From: Lachnospiraceae bacterium
GTDB lineage: Bacteria > Bacillota > Clostridia > Lachnospirales > Lachnospiraceae
Length of the DNA stretch: 37,015 nucleotides
NCBI GenBank assembly: GCA_024696945.1
Contig: JAILGF010000194.1
Location: 1 to 37,015, forward strand
Direction of reading: 5' to 3'
Within the stretch, counting starts at the first letter, position 1; every line of letters begins with the position of its first letter. A program made the translations under genes and the position numbers. This document shows, one piece after another, positions 24,640 to 33,325 of this stretch. The notes under the pieces are model-generated. The model saw only the letters and a program-made list of their open reading frames with translations. It had not been told where the DNA came from and ran no database searches.

Positions 24640-24909
24640 TCAATGATGATGCGGATTTTTCTTTACTATCTCTACCGCAGCCGCTATTTCTGTCATAATG
24701 GCCGTGCTGTATGGGATGCTTACCGAATCGACGCGTGAAAGAAGCTCTCCCTGTTCGGTAGATACATATTTGGGTTTAAGACGGTTCAATGAATAGCAGA
24801 GGATATCGGTCTTACAGGTATCGCATTTACAGCAGTTGAGTCCGGGAAGCATCTGTTCCAGCTTATCCTCGACCATCTTCTCCATAATATTTTTTACTAA
24901 AGCAGACAT
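24640..24909 (-). CDS. ComFB-like small protein
   Basis: An 89-residue protein. The ATG at 24909 follows a GGGGG site; a longer frame to 24996 would cross the promoter. It matches the late-competence ComFB family by the N-terminal helix (SALVKNIMEKMVEDKLEQMLPG), a Cys patch NCCKCDTCKTDILCYSLNRL (Cys26, 27, 29, 32, 38) and LKPKYVST. It ends in three histidines. ComFB-type proteins have been reported to bind cyclic dinucleotides and metal, so a signalling role is possible. It sits directly downstream of hydF but has its own promoter. Confidence 0.8.
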   Translation of the reverse strand: MSALVKNIMEKMVEDKLEQMLPGLNCCKCDTCKTDILCYSLNRLKPKYVSTEQGELLSRVDSVSIPYSTAIMTEIAAAVEIVKKNPHHH

Positions 24910-24986
24910 GTGTAACCCCCTAATATATGCATTGGCAGGACCTGTCCGGAATCTGCCCGTAATACATTTAATACCGCTACATAGAA

Positions 24987-25015
24987 ATTTTAGCACTTCT
25001 TGTCTGCTCTTTCAA
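24987..25015 (-). promoter_or_regulatory. Predicted promoter of the ComFB-like gene
   Basis: Minus strand TTGAAA (25015-25010), 17-bp spacer, TAAAAT (24992-24987), just after the hydF stop at 25023. Confidence 0.6.
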
Positions 25016-25022
25016 CAGTTTT

Positions 25023-26258
25023 TTACAGATTAATGTTAATTCCTTTTACAGCACGTTCCAGGATACCGTTTATATAAGCTATCAATATCCCGTAATTGAC
25101 TACAGGAACTCCCTGATCCTCCGCACACTTAACACGATAGGTTATTTCTCTTTCGTTCAGCATACAGCCTCCGCAATGGATGACTGCTTTATAGGCGCTC
25201 AGATCCTCCGGGAATCCTGTTCCGGAGCTGGTATCATACTCTACTTCAAAGCCGAACTTTTCCTTAAGCCACTTAGGTATTTTTACGGTTCCTATATCAT
25301 TGCACTGTCTGTGATGTGTACAGCCTTCGGATATAAGTACCTTATCCCCTTTTTTCAGATTCTTAAGAGCATTTACTCCCTTAAGAGCACTGTCAAGATA
25401 TCCCTTATACCGTGCAAGAAGGATTGAAAAAGAAGTCAACGGAATATCCGTCGGTGTAACCGCAGCCACCTTCTTAAATACCTGGCTGTCGCAGATCACC
25501 AATCTCGGTCTTTCTTTAAGTTTGTTCAGTGCACCTTCAAGTTCCTCGGTCTGTACGCAGAGGGCCATTCCGTGTTCATCCAGGATGTCACGTATCATCT
25601 GTACCTGAGGAAGGATAAGTCTGCCCTTCGGTGCCGCTTCATCCTGGGGCATGACCAAAATAAGCATATCCGAGGGAGTTATAAGGTCTCCTATGAGTCT
25701 CCGCTCGGAACCCTCCGGTTTTACGGATGCGATCAGTTCCTTCAGTTCATGTATATTTGTTTTATTGAGGGCCGATACATATATGCAGGGGATTTCTTTT
25801 CCCGAGCCGGTACGGTACAAAGTCTGCTTTCCGGTCCCCTGATCGGGAGTGCCGTTTTCTGTCAGCATGTCGGTCTTGTTAAATGCGATAACATAAGGTA
25901 TGTTCTTTTGGGCAAGCCTTTCCGCAAGCCTTTTATCATCATCGGTCAGGCCCGTTACAGCATCTGATACCAGTACAGCTATATCGGTCTTATTCATTAC
26001 CTGATCTGCTTTTTTTATACGCAGTTCGCCGAGTGTCCCCTCATCATCGTAACCCGGAGTATCGATTATTACCACGGGCCCTAAAGGAAGAAGCTCCATC
26101 GATTTATATACCGGATCGGTAGTAGTTCCTTTTATATCGGAAACTATTGCAAGCTCCTGATCCGTTACGGCATTTACAAGACTTGATTTTCCGGCGTTTC
26201 TTTTTCCAAAGAAAGCTATATGTATCCTATCGGCTCTTGCAGTATCGTTTAAACTCAT
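25023..26258 (-). CDS. hydF: [FeFe]-hydrogenase maturation GTPase HydF
   Basis: A 411-residue scaffold GTPase on which the two-iron part of the hydrogenase H-cluster is assembled. ATG 26258 is preceded by GGAGGTGAATAC. The GTPase domain has G1 GKRNAGKS (18-25), G3 DTPG (66-69) and G4 NKTD (127-130). The C-terminal cluster-binding set is Cys313-Thr-His315 then His361-Cys-Gly-Gly-Cys365, the CxH...HCxxC pattern of HydF. Length is normal. It begins 34 bp after the substrate-binding lipoprotein gene in the same direction, so it appears to be the last gene of the nitrogenase-like operon. hydE and hydG are not in the window. Confidence 0.95.
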   Translation of the reverse strand: MSLNDTARADRIHIAFFGKRNAGKSSLVNAVTDQELAIVSDIKGTTTDPVYKSMELLPLGPVVIIDTPGYDDEGTLGELRIKKADQVMNKTDIAVLVSDAVTGLTDDDKRLAERLAQKNIPYVIAFNKTDMLTENGTPDQGTGKQTLYRTGSGKEIPCIYVSALNKTNIHELKELIASVKPEGSERRLIGDLITPSDMLILVMPQDEAAPKGRLILPQVQMIRDILDEHGMALCVQTEELEGALNKLKERPRLVICDSQVFKKVAAVTPTDIPLTSFSILLARYKGYLDSALKGVNALKNLKKGDKVLISEGCTHHRQCNDIGTVKIPKWLKEKFGFEVEYDTSSGTGFPEDLSAYKAVIHCGGCMLNEREITYRVKCAEDQGVPVVNYGILIAYINGILERAVKGININL

Positions 26259-26292
26259 GTATTCACCTCCCGCAAATATGTAATTATGCCTT

Positions 26293-27516
26293 TTATTTCC
26301 CGTTTCCGACAAATCCTGTACCTGCCGCGGTTACGGGCGAGAATATTTTGTTTGCCTGCTCGTCGGTAAGAGTTATGCCAAATACTTCGCTGTAATATTT
26401 CTTTGTTTCGGCAGTGATATCAATATCCTCAAACAATGAAGGATACGTGGTTTTTGCAAGCCATAGAAGCGTAACGGGTGTATCAACACCACAGGTGTAG
26501 CTTCTGTACATTCCGAGAGGCATCTTATATACTTCCTTGTTCTTAATGGCTTCAATCTCGCTCCAATCATAGTTTCCTATAGTATTGTTGTAAAGATCTT
26601 CAGGCTTTGCGGTATTGAAGTTTGTAATAAAGATAAGCTCCGGATTCCATGCATATATCTGTTCCATGTTTACGGCAACGGAGTTATCGTTTTCAAGCTC
26701 TTCGCCTGCATTTACGGCTCCTATCGCATCACACCACCACTGACCGAAGAATTTCTTTCCGCTGGTCATAATATTTGAGTCCGAATACTGGAAAAGGAAG
26801 AAAGCCTTTACCTTTTCTTCATCCTTAAGTCCGGCGACTCTTTCCTGTACGAGCTTATAGGTTTTTTCGGAGTAATCCCTTACAATTTTTGATTTATTGT
26901 TCTCCGGGAATATCTGTACTAAGGTTTCTATCCACTGATTGAGTGTTTCTATGGCGTCATATCCCCACTTTCCGGGTGATATAGCAATGGCGGGGATTCC
27001 GGCATTTCTTAAGAGTTCGCCTTCTTCCTTGCTTCCTGCACTATAGAAGACTACATCTGGATTAAGCTTTAAGAGTTCTTCGATGTTTACATTGGTTCCG
27101 TCGATGAAATCTGTCTTTGCGTTAAGTATCTCGGGATAAAGTTCGCCAAGCAATCCGTTCTTGGCCGCACTCATACAGGGAGGAGCCATTCCGACTATTT
27201 TCTCTGCAGAATCAAAGAATACTGTAAGAACCGATGCCATGGGATAAATGTCTGCAACCACTATCCTGTTTACGGTATTGGGAACTTCCACTTGATTTCC
27301 GGCATGGTCTGTAACGATATGCGTTCCGGAAGGGTCTGCTGCAGGGGTCGCTGCAGCAGTAGTATTTGCGGTGGTATCTGCTGTAGTATCTACTTTTGTT
27401 TCTGCTTTGGTTACGCTGTTCACATTGTCGTTCGTGCCGCCCTTTTCATCCGAGCTGCAGGCAGCAAGGCTCAGGACTGTAGCCAGTACTAGGATGATCG
27501 CTAAAAGTTTCTTCAT
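26293..27516 (-). CDS. ABC transporter substrate-binding lipoprotein, FecB/BtuF type
   Basis: A 407-residue lipoprotein. Signal peptide with lipobox SLAAC (Cys20), then a Thr/Ala-rich linker to about residue 62. The domain begins HIVTDHAGNQVEVPNTVNRIVVAD, as in binding proteins for iron chelates, haem and corrinoids. Later parts are NIEELLKLNPDVVFYS and YAWNPELIFITN. Unusual for this class are three cysteines on the exported side: APPCMSAAK (Cys114), QWWCDAIGA and YTCGVDTP. It begins 68 bp after the second component-1-like gene with its own GAGGT site. It is the binding partner expected for the FecCD-type permease and ATPase of the same operon. The ligand cannot be read from sequence. Confidence 0.88.
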   Translation of the reverse strand: MKKLLAIILVLATVLSLAACSSDEKGGTNDNVNSVTKAETKVDTTADTTANTTAAATPAADPSGTHIVTDHAGNQVEVPNTVNRIVVADIYPMASVLTVFFDSAEKIVGMAPPCMSAAKNGLLGELYPEILNAKTDFIDGTNVNIEELLKLNPDVVFYSAGSKEEGELLRNAGIPAIAISPGKWGYDAIETLNQWIETLVQIFPENNKSKIVRDYSEKTYKLVQERVAGLKDEEKVKAFFLFQYSDSNIMTSGKKFFGQWWCDAIGAVNAGEELENDNSVAVNMEQIYAWNPELIFITNFNTAKPEDLYNNTIGNYDWSEIEAIKNKEVYKMPLGMYRSYTCGVDTPVTLLWLAKTTYPSLFEDIDITAETKKYYSEVFGITLTDEQANKIFSPVTAAGTGFVGNGK

Positions 27517-27584
27517 TGGTTTTTACCTCGTGCTTTCTAGTTATACATTTCTTATATAATTTTAAATTTGCTCCCTTATTAATA

Positions 27585-28727
27585 TTAAATATCAAAGGGA
27601 ACCTTTAAAATCAGATTCGGTATGTCCGCCCGATACAGCCTTCCTGAAAAGGCTTCATGGGGAAGTGAAATAAATTGTATCCGTTCGCTTTTTTCCTTCT
27701 CCACCAGCTTTAATATGGGTTTAAACAGCGGATCCGCTATTATGGTCTGTATATCTTTTAATGAATTGATAACATTTATTATTTCATCTTCATCCGAATC
27801 GGTCGTAGCATACCCCATACATTTTTTCCCGGTTTTTACGGTCAGGTATTTTGCCAAGGACAAGGAGCCTACCCGTTCTCCCAATATCAATATTTCTGCA
27901 TTAGGATTTAGGGCACCTTCAATTTCGTCTGTTACATCAATGTCCTCTCCTCCGAAGGGTGTTCCGACCTTATAGGGAATACCAAATCTCTCTTTAAGTT
28001 TCAATGCAGCGCCTAAACCGGTTTCCGAAACCACTATATTCAGATCCGCTCCGGCCGACCTGCCAATCTCTTCCAGGGACGAACCCATGGCCCAGGAAGA
28101 TACTATTTCATACCCCTTTTTCTCATAGAATTCCTTTATCGACCTGTCACTTCCATTTACTGAAAAATCAAGCGGGGTAAGTCCTAGGATATTTATTCTT
28201 TTTGTTTTACTTTCGGATTTTTTTTCGCTTTCTTTCGTCTCATGCGAATTGTTTTCAGGTTGTCTTTTTGCACTGACAGGCTGTTCCACAAATCTTTCCG
28301 CTATTGCTTCAAATGCCATTCCGGCACCATGAACGTATGATCTCATTCCCGTTGTGGCAAATCCGAATGCGGGGATTCCGGTTCCGTCCTCGATGACACG
28401 CGCTGCAGCATCCGCATCAAAGCCTGTCATTGCAGGAATCGGTGTTCCGGCTACGGCAATAAATCTTGGATGAAGTTCTTCCGCAGCTCTTACTATATCT
28501 TCTATCAGTTTGCTGTCATCACCCATTATTGCTTCTATTTCTGTCAGCGCGGATATATAGATCATGCTGTCCATGTCATACCAGCGTGGTTCATCATGAG
28601 TGGTATATGTTGAATTGCAGCCGGATGCATCATGCATTACTACCATTCCGCCAAGTTCATATAATGCGGAACATACTCCGAATGTATCCGCCGAATAAGT
28701 TGATATAAATCCTGATGTCTGTTTCAT
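27585..28727 (-). CDS. Nitrogenase component-1-like protein, NifK/NifE-like subunit
   Basis: About 380 residues. Similarity is to oxidoreductase nitrogenase component 1. ATG 28727 starts MKQTSGFISTYSADTFG; a TTG at 28748 would overlap the upstream gene by 13 bp, and neither start has a strong ribosome site, so coupling is likely. HDASGCNSTY (Cys37) lines up with the NifK HGSQGC cysteine. The place of the third P-cluster cysteine is lost: VAGTPIPAMTGFD has Pro96 there. Only Cys19, Cys37 and Cys303 exist. A low-complexity Lys/Glu/Ser linker at about 150-176 joins the N-terminal domain to a Rossmann-like second domain (INILGLTPLDFSVNGS). It pairs with the 453-residue gene just upstream as the probable second half of a reductase core. 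Confidence 0.82.
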   Translation of the reverse strand: MKQTSGFISTYSADTFGVCSALYELGGMVVMHDASGCNSTYTTHDEPRWYDMDSMIYISALTEIEAIMGDDSKLIEDIVRAAEELHPRFIAVAGTPIPAMTGFDADAAARVIEDGTGIPAFGFATTGMRSYVHGAGMAFEAIAERFVEQPVSAKRQPENNSHETKESEKKSESKTKRINILGLTPLDFSVNGSDRSIKEFYEKKGYEIVSSWAMGSSLEEIGRSAGADLNIVVSETGLGAALKLKERFGIPYKVGTPFGGEDIDVTDEIEGALNPNAEILILGERVGSLSLAKYLTVKTGKKCMGYATTDSDEDEIINVINSLKDIQTIIADPLFKPILKLVEKEKSERIQFISLPHEAFSGRLYRADIPNLILKVPFDI

Positions 28728-28735
28728 ATTTTTAT

Positions 28736-30097
28736 TTAACCCATACAACAGTTTCCGCAGCCCATGCCCTTTATCTGGACAAGACTCCGCATGTTCTTGG
28801 GATTTTCAAAAGCATCACACATTAGTTCAAGGGTATCCGTTATTGCTTCAAATCCAAACATTCCGCCGCCTTCCACAATATTTACGAAATGATCGGTGTT
28901 TAGGAAATAGGCTGCTTTCTGTCCGATAGCAAGCCATTTTTGTCCGTCCCTTTCAGCTGAAGCAAGAAATCTCGACCTAACATCCACTGTGGGATACAGC
29001 TCCAGATCGGGATGGTTTTCTTTTAAATATTCATAGTCCTCTTTTTCTTCCCCGGTAAAACTGTCTAAATAAATTCGTTTTACGTTAAACCCATGGTTAA
29101 GCAGCATTTTTGCCACTGATGTGGGTCTGGGGCAAAAGGTGTAATCTATGGCTATAGGTGTATCCCCTACCAGTTTCAGCGTTTTTTCAAATGCCTTTTC
29201 ACATTCGGATATCGATTGATCGTAATCCTTATCAATATCCATCGAAATTCCGTATCCTTCGAATTCTGACTTAAGGGAGTTAAGTGCTCTTGTTATCTCC
29301 ATGTAATCCCAGCTGTAAGGCAGGTATATATGCTTTCCGCCAAGCCTCTTGGCCAGTGCGTCCCCGCCTGCCTTGGCTGCCGGATAATATGTAATATACA
29401 GGCTGCTTTCAGCCATCTCCTGATATTCCGCATAGGTTCTACATGATGTTATTTCATGTATTTTTAGTCCTGATGCCTTTAATATCTTATACAAATCTGA
29501 GTTTTTCCTTGTGGGAAGATCGTTTCCTATTATAGCTACAGCATTGCTGTTCTTTTCGCGGGGTTTCAGCAATGCATAAAGCTGTCTCCGCATTGTCTGG
29601 TCGGGAGTAAGTCCGCTTTTCCTTAAGGTAGGGTTCATATAGCAGTCTACGATATCTATATCCGAAAACCGTTCCCTTAAGGTCCCAAACATCACCCCCC
29701 AGTCACAGCCTGTGAAATGGTGTACGCAGCTGGTATATACCAGAACGGCCGGCGGTCGTTTTTCCAGCTTATCGATCACATCGCTTACACCATCTATCAA
29801 CAGTTCTTCAAGGTTACCGTCCAGCAGGTTGTTTTCCTTTACCTCGACGGTTGAAAACCTATCCATCGCATCCATTTCAGCCGCAGTAAGGACCACGCCC
29901 CTTAGGCAACTTGCGGCACATACGAATATTTCGTGTGCTTCGGGAATAAGCATGCCGGTGTGGACTATATTCCAAGTACCACGAGCAGGGGAAGCATATT
30001 CAAGGCCGCCTTTGAACGGAACAGGGAAATTTGCCTCACCCATCCGAACCAAGGCGTCATTTTCAGTTATCCTGTTTTCTCCGATTTTTTTTAACAT
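28736..30097 (-). CDS. Nitrogenase component-1-like protein, NifD-like subunit
   Basis: A 453-residue cytosolic protein. Cys60 in FVCAASCLRGVV lines up residue for residue with NifD Cys62 (GCAYAG-KGVV), and Cys124 in SCVHHFTGCDW with NifD Cys154 (ECPxGLIGDD). The middle P-cluster cysteine (NifD Cys88) has no equivalent. The region of the FeMo-cofactor cysteine is YITYYPAAK without Cys, so a FeMo-type cofactor is unlikely. Extra cysteines are Cys64, Cys131, Cys322 and an unusual C-terminal tail GCGNCC (447-451). It starts 22 bp after the NifH-like gene. With the next gene it should form a complex reduced by that iron protein. Family membership is clear; the substrate is not. Confidence 0.85.
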   Translation of the reverse strand: MLKKIGENRITENDALVRMGEANFPVPFKGGLEYASPARGTWNIVHTGMLIPEAHEIFVCAASCLRGVVLTAAEMDAMDRFSTVEVKENNLLDGNLEELLIDGVSDVIDKLEKRPPAVLVYTSCVHHFTGCDWGVMFGTLRERFSDIDIVDCYMNPTLRKSGLTPDQTMRRQLYALLKPREKNSNAVAIIGNDLPTRKNSDLYKILKASGLKIHEITSCRTYAEYQEMAESSLYITYYPAAKAGGDALAKRLGGKHIYLPYSWDYMEITRALNSLKSEFEGYGISMDIDKDYDQSISECEKAFEKTLKLVGDTPIAIDYTFCPRPTSVAKMLLNHGFNVKRIYLDSFTGEEKEDYEYLKENHPDLELYPTVDVRSRFLASAERDGQKWLAIGQKAAYFLNTDHFVNIVEGGGMFGFEAITDTLELMCDAFENPKNMRSLVQIKGMGCGNCCMG

Positions 30098-30119
30098 TCT
30101 ATATGGATTCCTCTTTTAT

Positions 30120-30899
30120 TTATCTCACCAGTTTCTGTGCCATTTTACGGTATTCTTCCGCCATTTTGCTGTCAGGGAAAGCTTCCATTACTGTCTTCCC
30201 AAGTTCTTCAGCATCCTGAACCGTCTCGCTTCTTGACAATTCTCCGATTATTTCGGTTTCAAAATCGTTTGCAAGCTCACAGACCTTTTCGTTCTCAGTC
30301 TCGGCATTATGTCTTAAGGATGTTTTCATTTCCGCGGTGTAACGATGGTTCAATATCAGACCGCCCAGTTCCGCATAGCCCTTCGATTTAAAACTCCGTA
30401 CCGCCATGGCTATGTTGGCTGCGGCATAAATCGACATTTTTTCACCTGAAGTAATTATATATACCTTGTCGGCATAGCCCGCACGCATCGGCATCGAAAA
30501 GCCGCCGCAGACCACATCGCCCAAAACGTCATACAGTACGATATCTGGTTTGAAAATTTCGTAAGCCCCTTTTTCCTTAAGCTTGTCAAGGGCCGCGATT
30601 ATTCCCCTTCCAGCACATCCGACACCCGGGGTGGGCCCACCGGCTTCAACGCAGATGACGCCGTATGCGCCTCGTACCGCCATATCTTCCAGTGCAAAAT
30701 TATTACCATGCTCCCGTATCAAATCCAGAACCGTTTTTATATCCTTATTTCCACCCCTAAGGCTCAGCGTAGAATCCGCTTTAGGATCGCAGCCTATCTG
30801 CATGACGGTCAAGCCCTGCTGCGCTAGGGCTACCGCTATATTTGAAACCGTGGTGGATTTTCCTATTCCACCCTTTCCGTATATCGCAATCTTCTTCAT
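30120..30899 (-). CDS. NifH-like iron protein (nitrogenase reductase family)
   Basis: A 259-residue ATPase. ATG 30899 follows GGGAGGCAGA. The P-loop is GKGGIGKS (8-15). Both cluster cysteines of NifH are kept: Cys95 in PGVGCAGRGI and Cys131 in DVLGDVVCGGFSMPMR, so a homodimer bridged by one 4Fe-4S cluster is expected. Arg98, the residue ADP-ribosylated in some nitrogenases, is also present. Its job would be ATP-driven electron transfer to the two component-1-like proteins encoded directly downstream. It is a little shorter than true NifH. Close relatives by motif include NifH, BchL and CfbC, so similarity alone does not show nitrogen fixation. Confidence 0.93.
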   Translation of the reverse strand: MKKIAIYGKGGIGKSTTVSNIAVALAQQGLTVMQIGCDPKADSTLSLRGGNKDIKTVLDLIREHGNNFALEDMAVRGAYGVICVEAGGPTPGVGCAGRGIIAALDKLKEKGAYEIFKPDIVLYDVLGDVVCGGFSMPMRAGYADKVYIITSGEKMSIYAAANIAMAVRSFKSKGYAELGGLILNHRYTAEMKTSLRHNAETENEKVCELANDFETEIIGELSRSETVQDAEELGKTVMEAFPDSKMAEEYRKMAQKLVR

Positions 30900-30925
30900 T
30901 CTGCCTCCCGCCATTTTTGAGAAGT

Positions 30926-31732
30926 TTATCGCTTCTCGGTTACATATAAGGGTACTATATTCTTTATGGTTTCACCATCAACCTGCATCTCGTTTATAAC
31001 CGCCCTTACTCCGAAAACCGCTTCTATAGTTTTTTCATTTACGGTTTCTTCCGTCCTTCCAAAGTACGGCCTGTCTCCACCAAGTATCAGTGAGCAATCC
31101 GCCTTTTGTAGCGCATGCTTGGGATAATGCGTGTTAAAAATACAGCTGATTCCTTTTTCCTTCAGTCTGTCCATGGTGTTCAAAACGATAAGCTGGTTTC
31201 TGAAATCAAGACCCGATTCCGGCTCGTCCAGTATCAAAAGTTCGGGACCAGATACAAGTGCCTTTGCTATAAGCACCATTTGGAATTCACCGCCGCTCAA
31301 AGTATTGCAATCCCTATTTTTATAGGCTATGATACCCAATTCTTCCATTATCTTTTCTGTGGCTTCTATGTCGCTTTTTTTCGGGGTACTTAAAAATCCT
31401 ATCTGTCCGGACCTTCCTAGCAGGACACTTTCAAATGCGGTAAAGGATGAAGTTGCCATACGCTGTTGGGGCACATAGCTGACCTTGCTCCAGAATTCCT
31501 TAGAACTCAAGGTATTTGTATCCCTGTCGTCAAAAAAGCTTATCCCAGATGTCCACTTTAGCATGCCCATAAGGCACCTTAGAAATGTGGTTTTTCCACT
31601 CCCGTTAGGTCCTAAGATGGCCATTATCCTGCCGCTTTCAAGTTCTATATTTACATCACGGAAGATATACTTTTTTTCATTGCCGGCCCTTCCCGGATAT
31701 GAAAACGATACATTTTCGGTTCGTAATTTCAT
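30926..31732 (-). CDS. ABC transporter ATP-binding protein, FecE/BtuD type
   Basis: A 268-residue ATPase. Walker A GPNGSGKTT (41-49), signature LSGGE (145-149), Walker B LLILDE (165-170) and H-loop His202 are complete. The domain layout is that of class II importers for iron chelates and corrinoids, and the gene follows a FecCD-type permease. The stop is 26 bp before the NifH-like start. A 99-bp gap separates it from the permease and holds a 9-bp hairpin. Confidence 0.92.
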   Translation of the reverse strand: MKLRTENVSFSYPGRAGNEKKYIFRDVNIELESGRIMAILGPNGSGKTTFLRCLMGMLKWTSGISFFDDRDTNTLSSKEFWSKVSYVPQQRMATSSFTAFESVLLGRSGQIGFLSTPKKSDIEATEKIMEELGIIAYKNRDCNTLSGGEFQMVLIAKALVSGPELLILDEPESGLDFRNQLIVLNTMDRLKEKGISCIFNTHYPKHALQKADCSLILGGDRPYFGRTEETVNEKTIEAVFGVRAVINEMQVDGETIKNIVPLYVTEKR

Positions 31733-31787
31733 AATTTCATTCTTTCTATCACAAAATTGAAGATGCGGAGCTTCGTTTTGTTATTGA

Positions 31788-31808
31788 GAAAACGCCAAAG
31801 GCATTTTC
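31788..31808 (-). other. Intercistronic hairpin between permease and ATPase genes
   Basis: A 9-bp stem (GAAAACGCC at 31788-31796 with GGCATTTTC at 31800-31808, one G-U pair on the RNA) with a 3-nt loop. No T-run follows on the minus strand, so it is more likely a processing or stability structure than a terminator. Confidence 0.45.
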
Positions 31809-31831
31809 AATGTGACATCGACATATAGTAA

Positions 31832-32815
31832 TCACTGGATAAGCCGTTTTCTTGACGTCAAAATCAGGATAAAGAACGGTGCGCCAATTATCGCCGTAAG
31901 TATTGATACCGGTATCTCTGAGGCACTGACTGAACGAGCCATGGTATCTACTATCACCATAAATGCTGCCCCGATGCTTATGGATGCGGGAATAAGCTTC
32001 TTGTTGTCCTGTCCCCAGAGCATCCTGCACATGTGCGGGACTATGAGTCCCACCCAACCGACCTGTCCGCACATCGAAATGACCGAAGACGTCATGGCGG
32101 CGGCACATATGACTACCAAAGTTCTTAAAAGCCTTACATTTGTTCCCGATGCTATCAGCTCATCCTCCGAAAGGCTTAAAAGATTCATTCTCCAGCGCAA
32201 AAGGAAGATAATAACGATACTTACGATAATTATCGGAGCTCCCATTGCCAGGTTCTTGTATCCCGCACTACCCAGGCTTCCCATAAGCCAGTATGTGATG
32301 GCCGGAAGCTGTGATTCGGCATCCGCAACAAATTTGACCAGTGAAACAAGTGCCGAAAATAGTGAGCCTACCATTATTCCTGATATAACCAGAACGGCCG
32401 GGCCATGATCTCTGCCGGAAGCAGCCAGCTTTGTTGCAATTACGGCTCCCGCGCCGAAGACGAATGACATTATCTGGACCCCTATCATATCAAACCCCAG
32501 TAAAAGGCCAAGCGCCGCCCCGAAGCTTGCGCCACCCGCAACACCCATGGTATCGGGAGTAGCCAACGGGTTTGAGAAGAAGCTCTGGAAGCTGCAGCCG
32601 GCCACGCTCAATCCGGCTCCGCACAGAAGTCCCAAAAGAATACGGGGAAGGCGTACGTTCATAACCGTTATCCTAACGGTCCCCTTTATCTCTTCCGAGC
32701 CGATAAACGCCTTAAACACCTCGGCAGGACTAATCCCTATCCTTCCGATACAGATACAGACAAGGGCCGCCACGATGGGCAACAGTATCAATATTACCAT
32801 TGTTGTTTTTTTCAT
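31832..32815 (-). CDS. FecCD/BtuC-type ABC transporter permease
   Basis: A 327-residue integral membrane protein with about nine to ten hydrophobic segments. Family landmarks are RLPRILLGLLCGAGLSVAG, FSNPLATPDTMGVAGGASFGA, and near the end GQVGWVGLIVPHMCRMLWG. These proteins form the membrane channel of importers for siderophores, haem or corrinoids. The start is 29 bp after the TM1266-like stop with a site TAGGAT. It is the first transport gene of the operon. Confidence 0.93.
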   Translation of the reverse strand: MKKTTMVILILLPIVAALVCICIGRIGISPAEVFKAFIGSEEIKGTVRITVMNVRLPRILLGLLCGAGLSVAGCSFQSFFSNPLATPDTMGVAGGASFGAALGLLLGFDMIGVQIMSFVFGAGAVIATKLAASGRDHGPAVLVISGIMVGSLFSALVSLVKFVADAESQLPAITYWLMGSLGSAGYKNLAMGAPIIIVSIVIIFLLRWRMNLLSLSEDELIASGTNVRLLRTLVVICAAAMTSSVISMCGQVGWVGLIVPHMCRMLWGQDNKKLIPASISIGAAFMVIVDTMARSVSASEIPVSILTAIIGAPFFILILTSRKRLIQ

Positions 32816-32844
32816 TTATATCCTACCTATTTTGGAACATCGTG

Positions 32845-33093
32845 TTATTTGACATTTGAATAGTTGGTCTTAGCGGAAATCCCATGCAACCTTCCTATTT
32901 TGCCCGTCATGGCATTTATGTCATTCTCTTCCATATCCACCGCCACACAGATGATGTTGACCTTTTTTCCCTTATAAGGAAGGCCCATCCTTCCGATAAT
33001 CCCGTCACGGTACTGTGTAAGTATCGCATTCAATGCTTCCACCGAAGCGACATCTTCAACTATTATTGACACTACTGCAACTCTTTTTGCCAT
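32845..33093 (-). CDS. TM1266-type iron-only hydrogenase system regulator
   Basis: An 82-residue ACT-like (NikR C-terminal-like) protein. ATG 33093 follows GGGAGGAAGG; a start at 33114 would add seven unrelated residues. MAKRVAVVSIIVED and IIGRMGLPY (32-40) are the family hallmarks, along with NIICVAVDMEENDINAMTGKIGRL. Members sit in hydE/hydF/hydG gene groups and are thought to be small ligand-sensing regulators; no DNA-binding domain is present. Here it opens the operon that ends with hydF, which links the nitrogenase-like genes to hydrogenase maturation. Confidence 0.9.
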   Translation of the reverse strand: MAKRVAVVSIIVEDVASVEALNAILTQYRDGIIGRMGLPYKGKKVNIICVAVDMEENDINAMTGKIGRLHGISAKTNYSNVK

Positions 33094-33139
33094 TTCCTTC
33101 CTCCCAAAAACCAAAAACTACCTTCAATGAAAAATAAAA

Positions 33140-33163
33140 AGCCGCATCTAAAAAGATACGGCT
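33140..33163 (-). terminator. Intrinsic terminator or attenuator ahead of the nitrogenase-like operon
   Basis: On the minus strand, AGCCGTATCT, a 4-nt loop, and AGATGCGGCT (one mismatch) are followed by TTTTTATTTTTC. It lies 38 bp after the mini-ORF stop and 46 bp before the TM1266-like start. I see no promoter between it and that gene. The operon would then need read-through, which fits attenuation. Confidence 0.7.
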
Positions 33164-33201: not shown

Positions 33202-33252
33202 TTACATCTGCGAAGGAACTTCCCGCACATCTGATTTTTCTTCTTTTGCCAT
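33202..33252 (-). CDS. 16-residue leader peptide (mini-ORF)
   Basis: ATG (33252-33250) to TAA, product MAKEEKSDVREVPSQM. It has a good ribosome site, GAGGTGAAAGAT, and lies between a consensus promoter and an intrinsic terminator. The mini-ORF contains CAGATGTGCGG (minus strand, around 33223-33233), which could pair with the 5' arm of the terminator and so compete with it. It has no run of one amino acid as in classic amino-acid attenuators. It may be a leader peptide; a free-standing small protein is the alternative. Confidence 0.5.
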   Translation of the reverse strand: MAKEEKSDVREVPSQM

Positions 33253-33296
33253 ATCTTTCACCTCAAGGACTTGCTTTCGGTGTTAGATTTTAGGCA

Positions 33297-33325
33297 ATTA
33301 TAATATGTGCGTCGACTTTTGTCAA
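33297..33325 (-). promoter_or_regulatory. Consensus promoter of the nitrogenase-like operon
   Basis: TTGACA (33325-33320), 17-bp spacer, TATAAT (33302-33297): an exact match to the sigma-A consensus in both boxes and spacing. Such a strong promoter ahead of a terminator suggests control after initiation. Confidence 0.85.

Follow-up and report, generated by a model that had tools for sequence, protein, structure and literature searches.

Here we analyse an eight-gene operon of a Lachnospiraceae bacterium in which genes for a nitrogenase-like reductase and an ATP-binding cassette (ABC) importer are combined with genes linked to [FeFe]-hydrogenase maturation. The operon lies on the minus strand of a stretch of 37,015 nucleotides (the window), which is the entire contig JAILGF010000194.1 of a 3.9 Mb genome (G000, GenBank assembly GCA_024696945.1) of 86% completeness. 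It encodes, in this order, TM1266, a FecCD permease, an ABC importer ATPase, NifH-like, NifD-like and NifK-like proteins, a binding lipoprotein and HydF. Comparison of genomes shows that the NifD clade of this operon and HydG are near-exclusive, with HydE and HydF retained. It also shows that a common core of TM1266 and NifHDK-like genes, with HydE and HydF in the genome, is paired either with the importer (type A) or with HypF-C-D-E and a second NifHDK set (type B). On the strength of these sequence comparisons we propose, with a probability of roughly 0.6, that the operon encodes a module by which the H-cluster of [FeFe]-hydrogenases matures independently of HydG; the module would serve the iron-carbon monoxide/cyanide (Fe-CO/CN) part of the cluster and use the NifHDK-like pair as an ATP-driven reductase.

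All CO and CN- of [FeFe]-hydrogenases are attributed to HydG (PMC3105041, in the excerpt consulted). It is a radical S-adenosylmethionine (SAM) enzyme that cleaves tyrosine (PMC9431212, excerpt); its fold and chemistry differ from those of the pair considered here, which is predicted to be an ATP-driven nitrogenase-like reductase. PMC9431212, a survey of 2022, reports in the excerpt that among eight acetogenic Clostridium species five have HydE and HydF and lack a clear HydG; it gives no straightforward explanation and mentions an atypical radical-SAM gene as a possible one. Dos Santos et al. 2012 (PMC3464626, excerpt) described nitrogenase-like genes that neighbour ABC transporters and, in Coprococcus catus and further Firmicutes, genes of hydrogenase maturation, and proposed that their products take part in building active sites. 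The Group IV nitrogenase-like proteins of that paper (Coprococcus catus, Dorea, Methanocorpusculum, Desulfitobacterium) resemble those of the window by their description: cysteines are conserved in both subunits, ABC-transporter and hydrogenase-maturation genes are neighbours, and some have two linked NifHEN-like copies. In the excerpt, the Group IV account contains neither a relation to HydG nor a link to Hyp proteins nor a regulatory RNA. The association with hydrogenase maturation is already in print since 2012, and a preliminary description of the operon, which was made from its sequence alone and knew of no assigned function for this combination, has to be amended to that extent. The near-exclusive relation to HydG is new here. 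HydG exclusion, Hyp link and leader RNA were not found in the literature searched, which consisted of open-licence papers.

Near-exclusive occurrence of the NifD clade and HydG

Even sampling of the class of the window supplied 392 control genomes; a completeness of at least 95% was requested, and G000 was included at its 86%. HydG passes its cut-off in 232 and HydF in 258 of these genomes, and the [FeFe]-hydrogenase family PF02906 is found in 370. A NifD profile matches 32 of the 392. Twenty-three matches make up the window clade (E<1e-110, a cut set after the gap to the next match at 9e-89 had been seen) and nine lie at 1e-12 to 1e-89. According to a cross-table compiled by hand from the per-family result tables, the clade is present in 23 of 30 genomes with HydF and without HydG, in none of 228 with both and in none of 134 without HydF (Fisher p=4.9e-27). 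Since the genomes are related, this p-value is inflated, and contrasts within taxa weigh more. The clade occurs in nine families, eight of which also include further HydF-bearing genomes with HydG, and the direction is the same in 8/8. Genus g92 comprises eight genomes with the clade and without HydG, six with HydG and without the clade, and two that lack either as well as HydF. Genus g157 is split into two genomes with the clade and two with HydG. Within the genus of the window, where several genomes are incomplete, HydG is found in 0/14 clade-bearing genomes and in 5/10 others.

HydE and HydF are above cut-off in all 23 clade genomes (HydG, 0/23), and each has PF02906 matches, one of them weak. 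The clade occupies the phyletic place of HydG (TIGR03955), with HydE and HydF alongside. Seven of the nine distant NifD matches sit in HydG-bearing genomes, so that the exclusion is specific to the window clade. Compared with canonical HydEFG maturation, G000 has HydE (C38:71834-72850, 587 bits) and HydF, together with three PF02906 genes; HydG is not found in this 86% complete genome, the sole cross-match (86 bits against a cut-off of 312) being located at the HydE gene. An ATP-driven nitrogenase-like reductase tied to [FeFe]-hydrogenase maturation, as the preliminary description had it, is supported by these comparisons. The absence of HydG is a stronger correlate of the reductase than HydF.

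One core with importer or Hyp partners

Using a profile built from 11 NifD-like proteins, 463 relatives were found in the genome collection, and the best 80 loci were kept; by title these are mostly metagenome-assembled genomes (MAGs) of Clostridia from the ruminant or other animal gut. Neighbours were counted at loci with at least 5.5 kb upstream (n=57) or at least 6 kb downstream (n=55). Upstream, TM1266 is found in 57/57, FecCD with the ATPase in 52/57, HydE in 19/57 and HydG in 0/57 loci; downstream, the lipoprotein is found in 50/55 and HydF in 15/55. The arrangement is widespread in relatives, so that an accident of one strain, one of the two outcomes that would have spoken against the preliminary description, is ruled out. 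Among the 80 cluster-bearing genomes, 50 of unstated completeness were searched for HydG, which exceeds its cut-off in two. HydE, when part of the cluster, often sits between the ATPase and NifH genes (L031, L120). The ATPase of L031 (2662-3756) and L078 (3880-4974) bears a fused C-terminal TM1266 domain, which suggests that TM1266 may serve the importer as a sensor of its ligand in addition to acting as a free regulator. At one locus (L122 8709-10805, G273) a single open frame of 698 residues joins NifH-like and NifD-like parts.

Clusters were examined in 21 of the 23 clade genomes, including the window and leaving out G266 and G217. Seven of them, counting the window, are type A with the importer and one NifHDK set. 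The other 14 are type B: the stretch shows no importer, and it contains an additional NifHDK or NifDK set as well as Hyp genes (14/14), the latter mostly between the two NifHDK sets; HydF and/or HydE adjoin in many. Type B clusters hold all four of the [NiFe]-hydrogenase maturation proteins HypC-D-E-F above curated cut-offs. The scores in L138 and L130 are 739 against 466 bits for HypF, 385 against 193 for HypD, 414 against 252 for HypE and 58.7 against 48 for HypC; HypC passes Pfam in L138 and L128, and a HypC frame of 68-76 amino acids is present in 9/9 loci inspected. HypC-F make the Fe(CN)2CO unit (PMC9431212, excerpt). In type B this system is grouped with NifHDK and often with HydE/HydF, and neither HypA nor HypB nor a [NiFe] large subunit was found among the 12 flanking open reading frames (ORFs) scanned. 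The window has no Hyp genes. At L143 (2813-17598, G475) a flavoprotein, an [FeFe]-hydrogenase, HydE, HydF, TM1266, NifHDK2 and HypF-C-D-E follow each other on one strand, and a HydG-bearing congener of the type B genomes has TM1266-HydE-HydG-HydF (L146). HydA adjoins L135 and L143. HydA-like labels beside L119 and L133 were dropped, the genes encoding DUF362/ferredoxin and GGDEF proteins instead.

A quick maximum-likelihood tree of 69 proteins groups the window NifD with those of types A, B1 and C, the last being clusters with neither importer nor Hyp genes nearby, in a single clade that comprises 28 rows; support by the Shimodaira-Hasegawa-like approximate likelihood ratio test (SH-aLRT) is 100. 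NifD2 of type B forms a separate clade, also with SH-aLRT 100. The NifD proteins of importer sets from Treponema, G027 and Sporomusa lie outside the window clade. A place inside a characterised group would likewise have spoken against the preliminary description. Here the clade stands apart from the NifD, NifE, NifK, NifN, BchN and BchB references, which are on long branches and of unsure placement; CfbD and Mar proteins are absent from this tree. Within the clade, the best tree requires five changes for type A and three for type B1, which suggests a repeated swap of importer and Hyp modules around one core; well-supported branches force only three (A) and one (B1), with the window and type C rows treated as other labels. 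A HydF tree of 28 rows does not unite the 19 rows from clade genomes in one group (6 changes, shuffled mean 7.8), and no specialised HydF clade was found among these rows, only three of which come from HydG genomes.

A proposed route without HydG and its alternatives

In the proposed route, the NifH-like protein would hydrolyse ATP and send low-potential electrons via a [4Fe-4S] cluster at the NifD/NifK-like interface to the substrate. The NifDK-like pair would thereby produce or reduce the Fe-CO/CN unit that otherwise comes from HydG, and HydE and HydF would complete the H-cluster as usual. In type B, HypF/E and HypC/D would provide the cyanide and the Fe-CN/CO unit, and in type A the importer would supply a comparable iron compound or a precursor of it. 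The leader RNA described below and TM1266, either on its own or as a domain of the ATPase, would act as feedback sensors of the pathway. We infer that NifHDK together with Hyp proteins or importer supplies the Fe-CO/CN unit because the clade replaces HydG phyletically, HydE and HydF stay, and type B adds the enzymes that make Fe(CN)2CO. In keeping with this, nitrogenases can form CO or HCN by reduction of CO2, cyanate and thiocyanate. Any identity given to the substrate and to the cargo of the importer is a guess. An imported metal chelate or tetrapyrrole, which the preliminary description had named as substrate, was not established, and related clusters show no importer and carry HypF-C-D-E. 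If true, the clusters would be a concrete answer to the absence of HydG in other bacteria of the window's group, namely a nitrogenase-like reductase with an importer or with the cyanide machinery of the [NiFe] Hyp system. Within the nitrogenase superfamily, a large orphan branch from gut microbes would gain a function, two hydrogenase maturation systems would be joined, and new parts for hydrogenase production and a candidate riboswitch class would be added.

Several findings weigh against this route. Seven genomes with HydF and without HydG lack the clade (G052, G294, G326, G329, G364, G386, G422). Two of them look like assembly gaps, namely G294, with a HydE truncated at a contig end, and G422, which is also without HydE, unlike its congeners, where both are found. 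HydE is present in G364, and HydG in a congener of it; G326 and G386 show sub-cut-off HydE only; G052 and G329 have HydE and HydF, and we have no explanation for their lack of the clade. G072 and G074, the two exceptions among the 50 genomes searched, carry both systems. The HydG model has sub-cut-off matches of E 1e-50 to 1e-66 in seven of the 23 clade genomes, of which only that of G388 is assigned: at 1e-51 it is ThiH, with 511 bits against a ThiH cut-off of 380. The other 16 have such matches at 1e-14 to 1e-24 only. A hidden divergent copy of HydG is unlikely, as the match in G000 is HydE and that in G388 is ThiH, six matches of similar strength being unassigned. A PF02906 gene without HydF above cut-off is present in at least 112 of the 392 genomes, among them G412 and G272, whose PF02906 scores are at the top; maturases are thus often missing. 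Many sampled genomes are MAGs and are not mutually independent. Type C comprises five named loci with TM1266 and NifHDK, in L085 also HydE, and neither importer nor Hyp genes nearby. Neither HypC-F nor HydG was found in ~1.78 of ~2.0 Mb of G388, a type A genome, and hence no CN- source for type A. The repeated swap of modules is not forced by well-supported branches. Finally, more distant importer-NifHDK sets of Treponema, G027 and Sporomusa have no Hyd genes in the stretch.

These distant sets favour iron acquisition, the strongest of the alternatives and in our judgement still an unlikely one. The NifHDK-like pair would then be an ATP-driven reductase of very low potential that frees iron from an imported ferric chelate, e.g. 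a catecholate siderophore, and its position near hyd genes would reflect the iron demand of hydrogenase maturation. The importer is indeed of the FecCD/PF01497 type, and its lipoprotein matches the catecholamine-iron binder SstD (48 against 450 bits) and the heme binder IsdE (37 against 299 bits), in both cases far below the cut-off. The sets without Hyd genes in the stretch seen include Treponema saccharophilum pTS1 (L023 9872-17528) and L157 of G027, a distant branch with a NifD about 26% identical. Sporomusa termitida pSPTER (L261 3589-16038) carries a TonB siderophore receptor, an AraC regulator, a binding protein, two permeases, an ATPase, NifHDK-like genes and a PF00756 esterase. This locus resembles a ferric-siderophore locus with a nitrogenase-like reductase. 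The Sporomusa proteins fall outside the clade, however, and iron acquisition leaves unexplained the mutual exclusion of clade and HydG, the HypF-C-D-E genes of type B without an importer in the stretch, and the leader RNA before HydF-HydE-HydG.

Rather improbable, too, is a salvage version of the HydG-independent route. The type A importer would take up an iron compound bearing CN-/CO, e.g. hydrogenase-cofactor material shed by neighbours, and the nitrogenase-like enzyme would reduce it to a state that HydE and HydF use. A new riboswitch class would sense that precursor and control the importer operon and, in some HydG genomes, HydF-HydE-HydG, while type B would build the unit by Hyp proteins.

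We give still less weight to a replacement of HydG by another gene or by scavenged CO/CN-, in which the NifHDK-like proteins would do another H-cluster step needed only there, e.g. reduction of a precursor bound to HydF. In work cited in PMC9431212 (excerpt), trace diatomics allowed about 1% activation by HydE and HydF when HydG was absent, and the seven genomes with HydF and without HydG that lack the NifHDK module fit such a replacement. Type B, with HypF-C-D-E, has a cyanide source beside NifHDK, which speaks against it; no systematic search for another gene tracking HydG absence was made. It is highly improbable that the enzyme reduces a tetrapyrrole or cofactor in the manner of CfbCD or BchLNB, with an imported pigment or corrinoid as substrate: the NifH-like protein scores 294 bits with CfbC and type II importers transport cobalamin and heme, but the scores stay below the equivalog cut-offs of CfbC, CfbD and Bch, and a link to HydG would not be expected.

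Genes and leader RNA of the window operon

All eight genes are on the minus strand. The first encodes the TM1266-family small regulator (32845..33114, ATG at 33093), with 95 bits for PF21699 and 95.4 bits for TIGR03959 (cut-off 60.8). The type II ABC importer set is complete in the window and consists of the FecCD-type permease (31832..32815; PF01032, 272 bits), the ATPase (30926..31732; PF00005 ABC_tran, 106 bits) and the substrate-binding lipoprotein (26293..27516; PF01497 Peripla_BP_2, 65 bits). The NifH-like [4Fe-4S] ATPase/reductase (30120..30914) matches PF00142 Fer4_NifH at 273 bits and stays below the NifH, CfbC and BchL equivalog cut-offs. The NifD-like subunit (28736..30097), which falls in no NCBIfam family, and the NifK/NifE-like subunit (27585..28748) are members of the PF00148 Oxidored_nitro superfamily (50.1 and 104.1 bits, gathering threshold 28.6). 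The last gene encodes the H-cluster maturation GTPase HydF (25023..26312, ATG at 26258; TIGR03918, 561 against 326 bits). Only TM1266 and HydF, among the eight, pass an NCBIfam equivalog cut-off. Counted by open frames, the intergenic gaps are 29, 99, 11, 22 and 68 bp; the NifD/NifK and lipoprotein/HydF frames overlap slightly, but taking the next ATG as start turns these overlaps into gaps of 8 and 34 bp. The gene count, strand and coordinates given earlier were correct, as was a longest gap of about 100 bp, the maximum being 99 bp.

The window pair shares its fold and two-component layout with NifEN, CfbCD, BchLNB and methylthio-alkane reductase (Mar). Nitrogen fixation, CfbCD and dark-operative protochlorophyllide oxidoreductase (DPOR) were dropped because scores are too low and partners are missing. 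For NifHDK, TIGR01287 reaches 301.5 (cut-off 394.35), the NifD-like protein has no hit, and the NifK-like protein scores 42.6 against nifD (653.55). The values are 294.5 for CfbC (402) and 23.4 for CfbD (268.4), and for DPOR BchLNB 186.4 for BchL (345.15) and 38.9 for BchB (490.35). PF00148 occurs in the 86% complete G000 in the two window genes only, which leaves no NifE/NifN; no nifB search was made. The earlier view that N2 fixation is unlikely agrees with these scores. The ligands of the iron-molybdenum cofactor (Cys275 and His442 in nitrogenase) are absent from diverse archaeal and Firmicutes nitrogenase-like clades in the excerpt of PMC3464626.

In alignment A3 (28 rows) as well as in A4 (36 rows), the NifD-like protein keeps C60, C64 and C124 in every row and C447 in nearly all; C450 is invariant in A4 only. 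Every row of A2 (24 rows) and of A5 (36 rows) has C44 of the NifK-like protein. C124 aligns to a NifE cysteine and C44, weakly, to a cysteine of the NifN part, positions which we take to be of the P-cluster ligand type. AlphaFold models have a predicted local distance difference test (pLDDT) score of 84.3 for the NifD-like and 81.8 for the NifK-like protein, with low values at NifD 31-45 and 442-453 and at NifK 45-58. Their best Foldseek matches are nitrogenase and NifEN chains, and Mar and DPOR chains are also listed. Conserved cysteines and nitrogenase/NifEN-like models together make a [4Fe-4S] cluster at the interface of the NifD/NifK-like pair likely.

The leader of the operon has a promoter consensus, followed by a 45-nt RNA element and a terminator. 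A putative sigma-70 type promoter, TTGACA-17-TATAAT, lies at 33297..33325 on the minus strand, identified solely by its consensus match; among 25 promoter-like sites (20.6 expected), 33325-33297 is the single one with 12/12 consensus positions. The RNA element (33245..33290, minus strand), first spotted by eye in relatives, has the consensus CUGACACCGAAAW-loop-WUUGAGGUGAAAGAU and scores 52.7 bits with model R1, the window leader being one of the 20 leaders that trained this model, all picked upstream of TM1266. An intrinsic terminator follows at 33140..33163 (minus strand), and its 5' arm GCCGUAUCUUU is able to pair with AAAGAUAUGGC of the element as an antiterminator. The alignment of 20 leaders covaries (93% of cells paired, 84% when shuffled, at most 43% in slid controls), and covariation is seen in both alignments A7 and A8. 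Two-sided changes amount to 31 cells in 37 matches against 7.5 when shuffled, in an alignment that is model-fitted. The fold of the window leader is more stable than its shuffles (z -3.35). An intrinsic terminator is found by a simple rule downstream of 32 of the 37 matches, against a mean of 2.3 in shuffled stretches. Complementarity of element and terminator is 6.59 within and 5.53 between loci (p=0.0017; 23/32).

The model search gave 30 matches at E<1e-3 in 75 sources, 13 of them outside the training set, and six matches in 54 other sources, three outside the training set. Matches precede TM1266 or FecCD; in the HydG-bearing genome G009 (L158) the element lies between TM1266 and HydF-HydE-HydG, and G072 (L110) has a weak match (E 0.015) 48 nt upstream of the HydG frame. 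The element is present in 2/12 searched loci that hold HydG, 8/12 being short stretches. Type B loci have no match at E<1e-3, and a wider regulon was not found in a type A genome, with a single copy in 1.77 Mb of G388. L094 (5599, 5974) and L103 (5579, 5977) have two copies per cluster, before TM1266 and before FecCD. Rfam gave no family match in the window and none at the element in seven relatives searched, by which a known riboswitch was ruled out; a leader peptide was ruled out as the ATGGCA frame of the window is lost in relatives. The element has a conserved covarying structure before an expression platform, as expected of a riboswitch, and we regard it as a candidate riboswitch or attenuator. 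At the other end of the operon, HydF is followed by a ComFB-family gene (24640-24996), and ComFB-like matches also lie downstream in L025, L026, L029 and L030.

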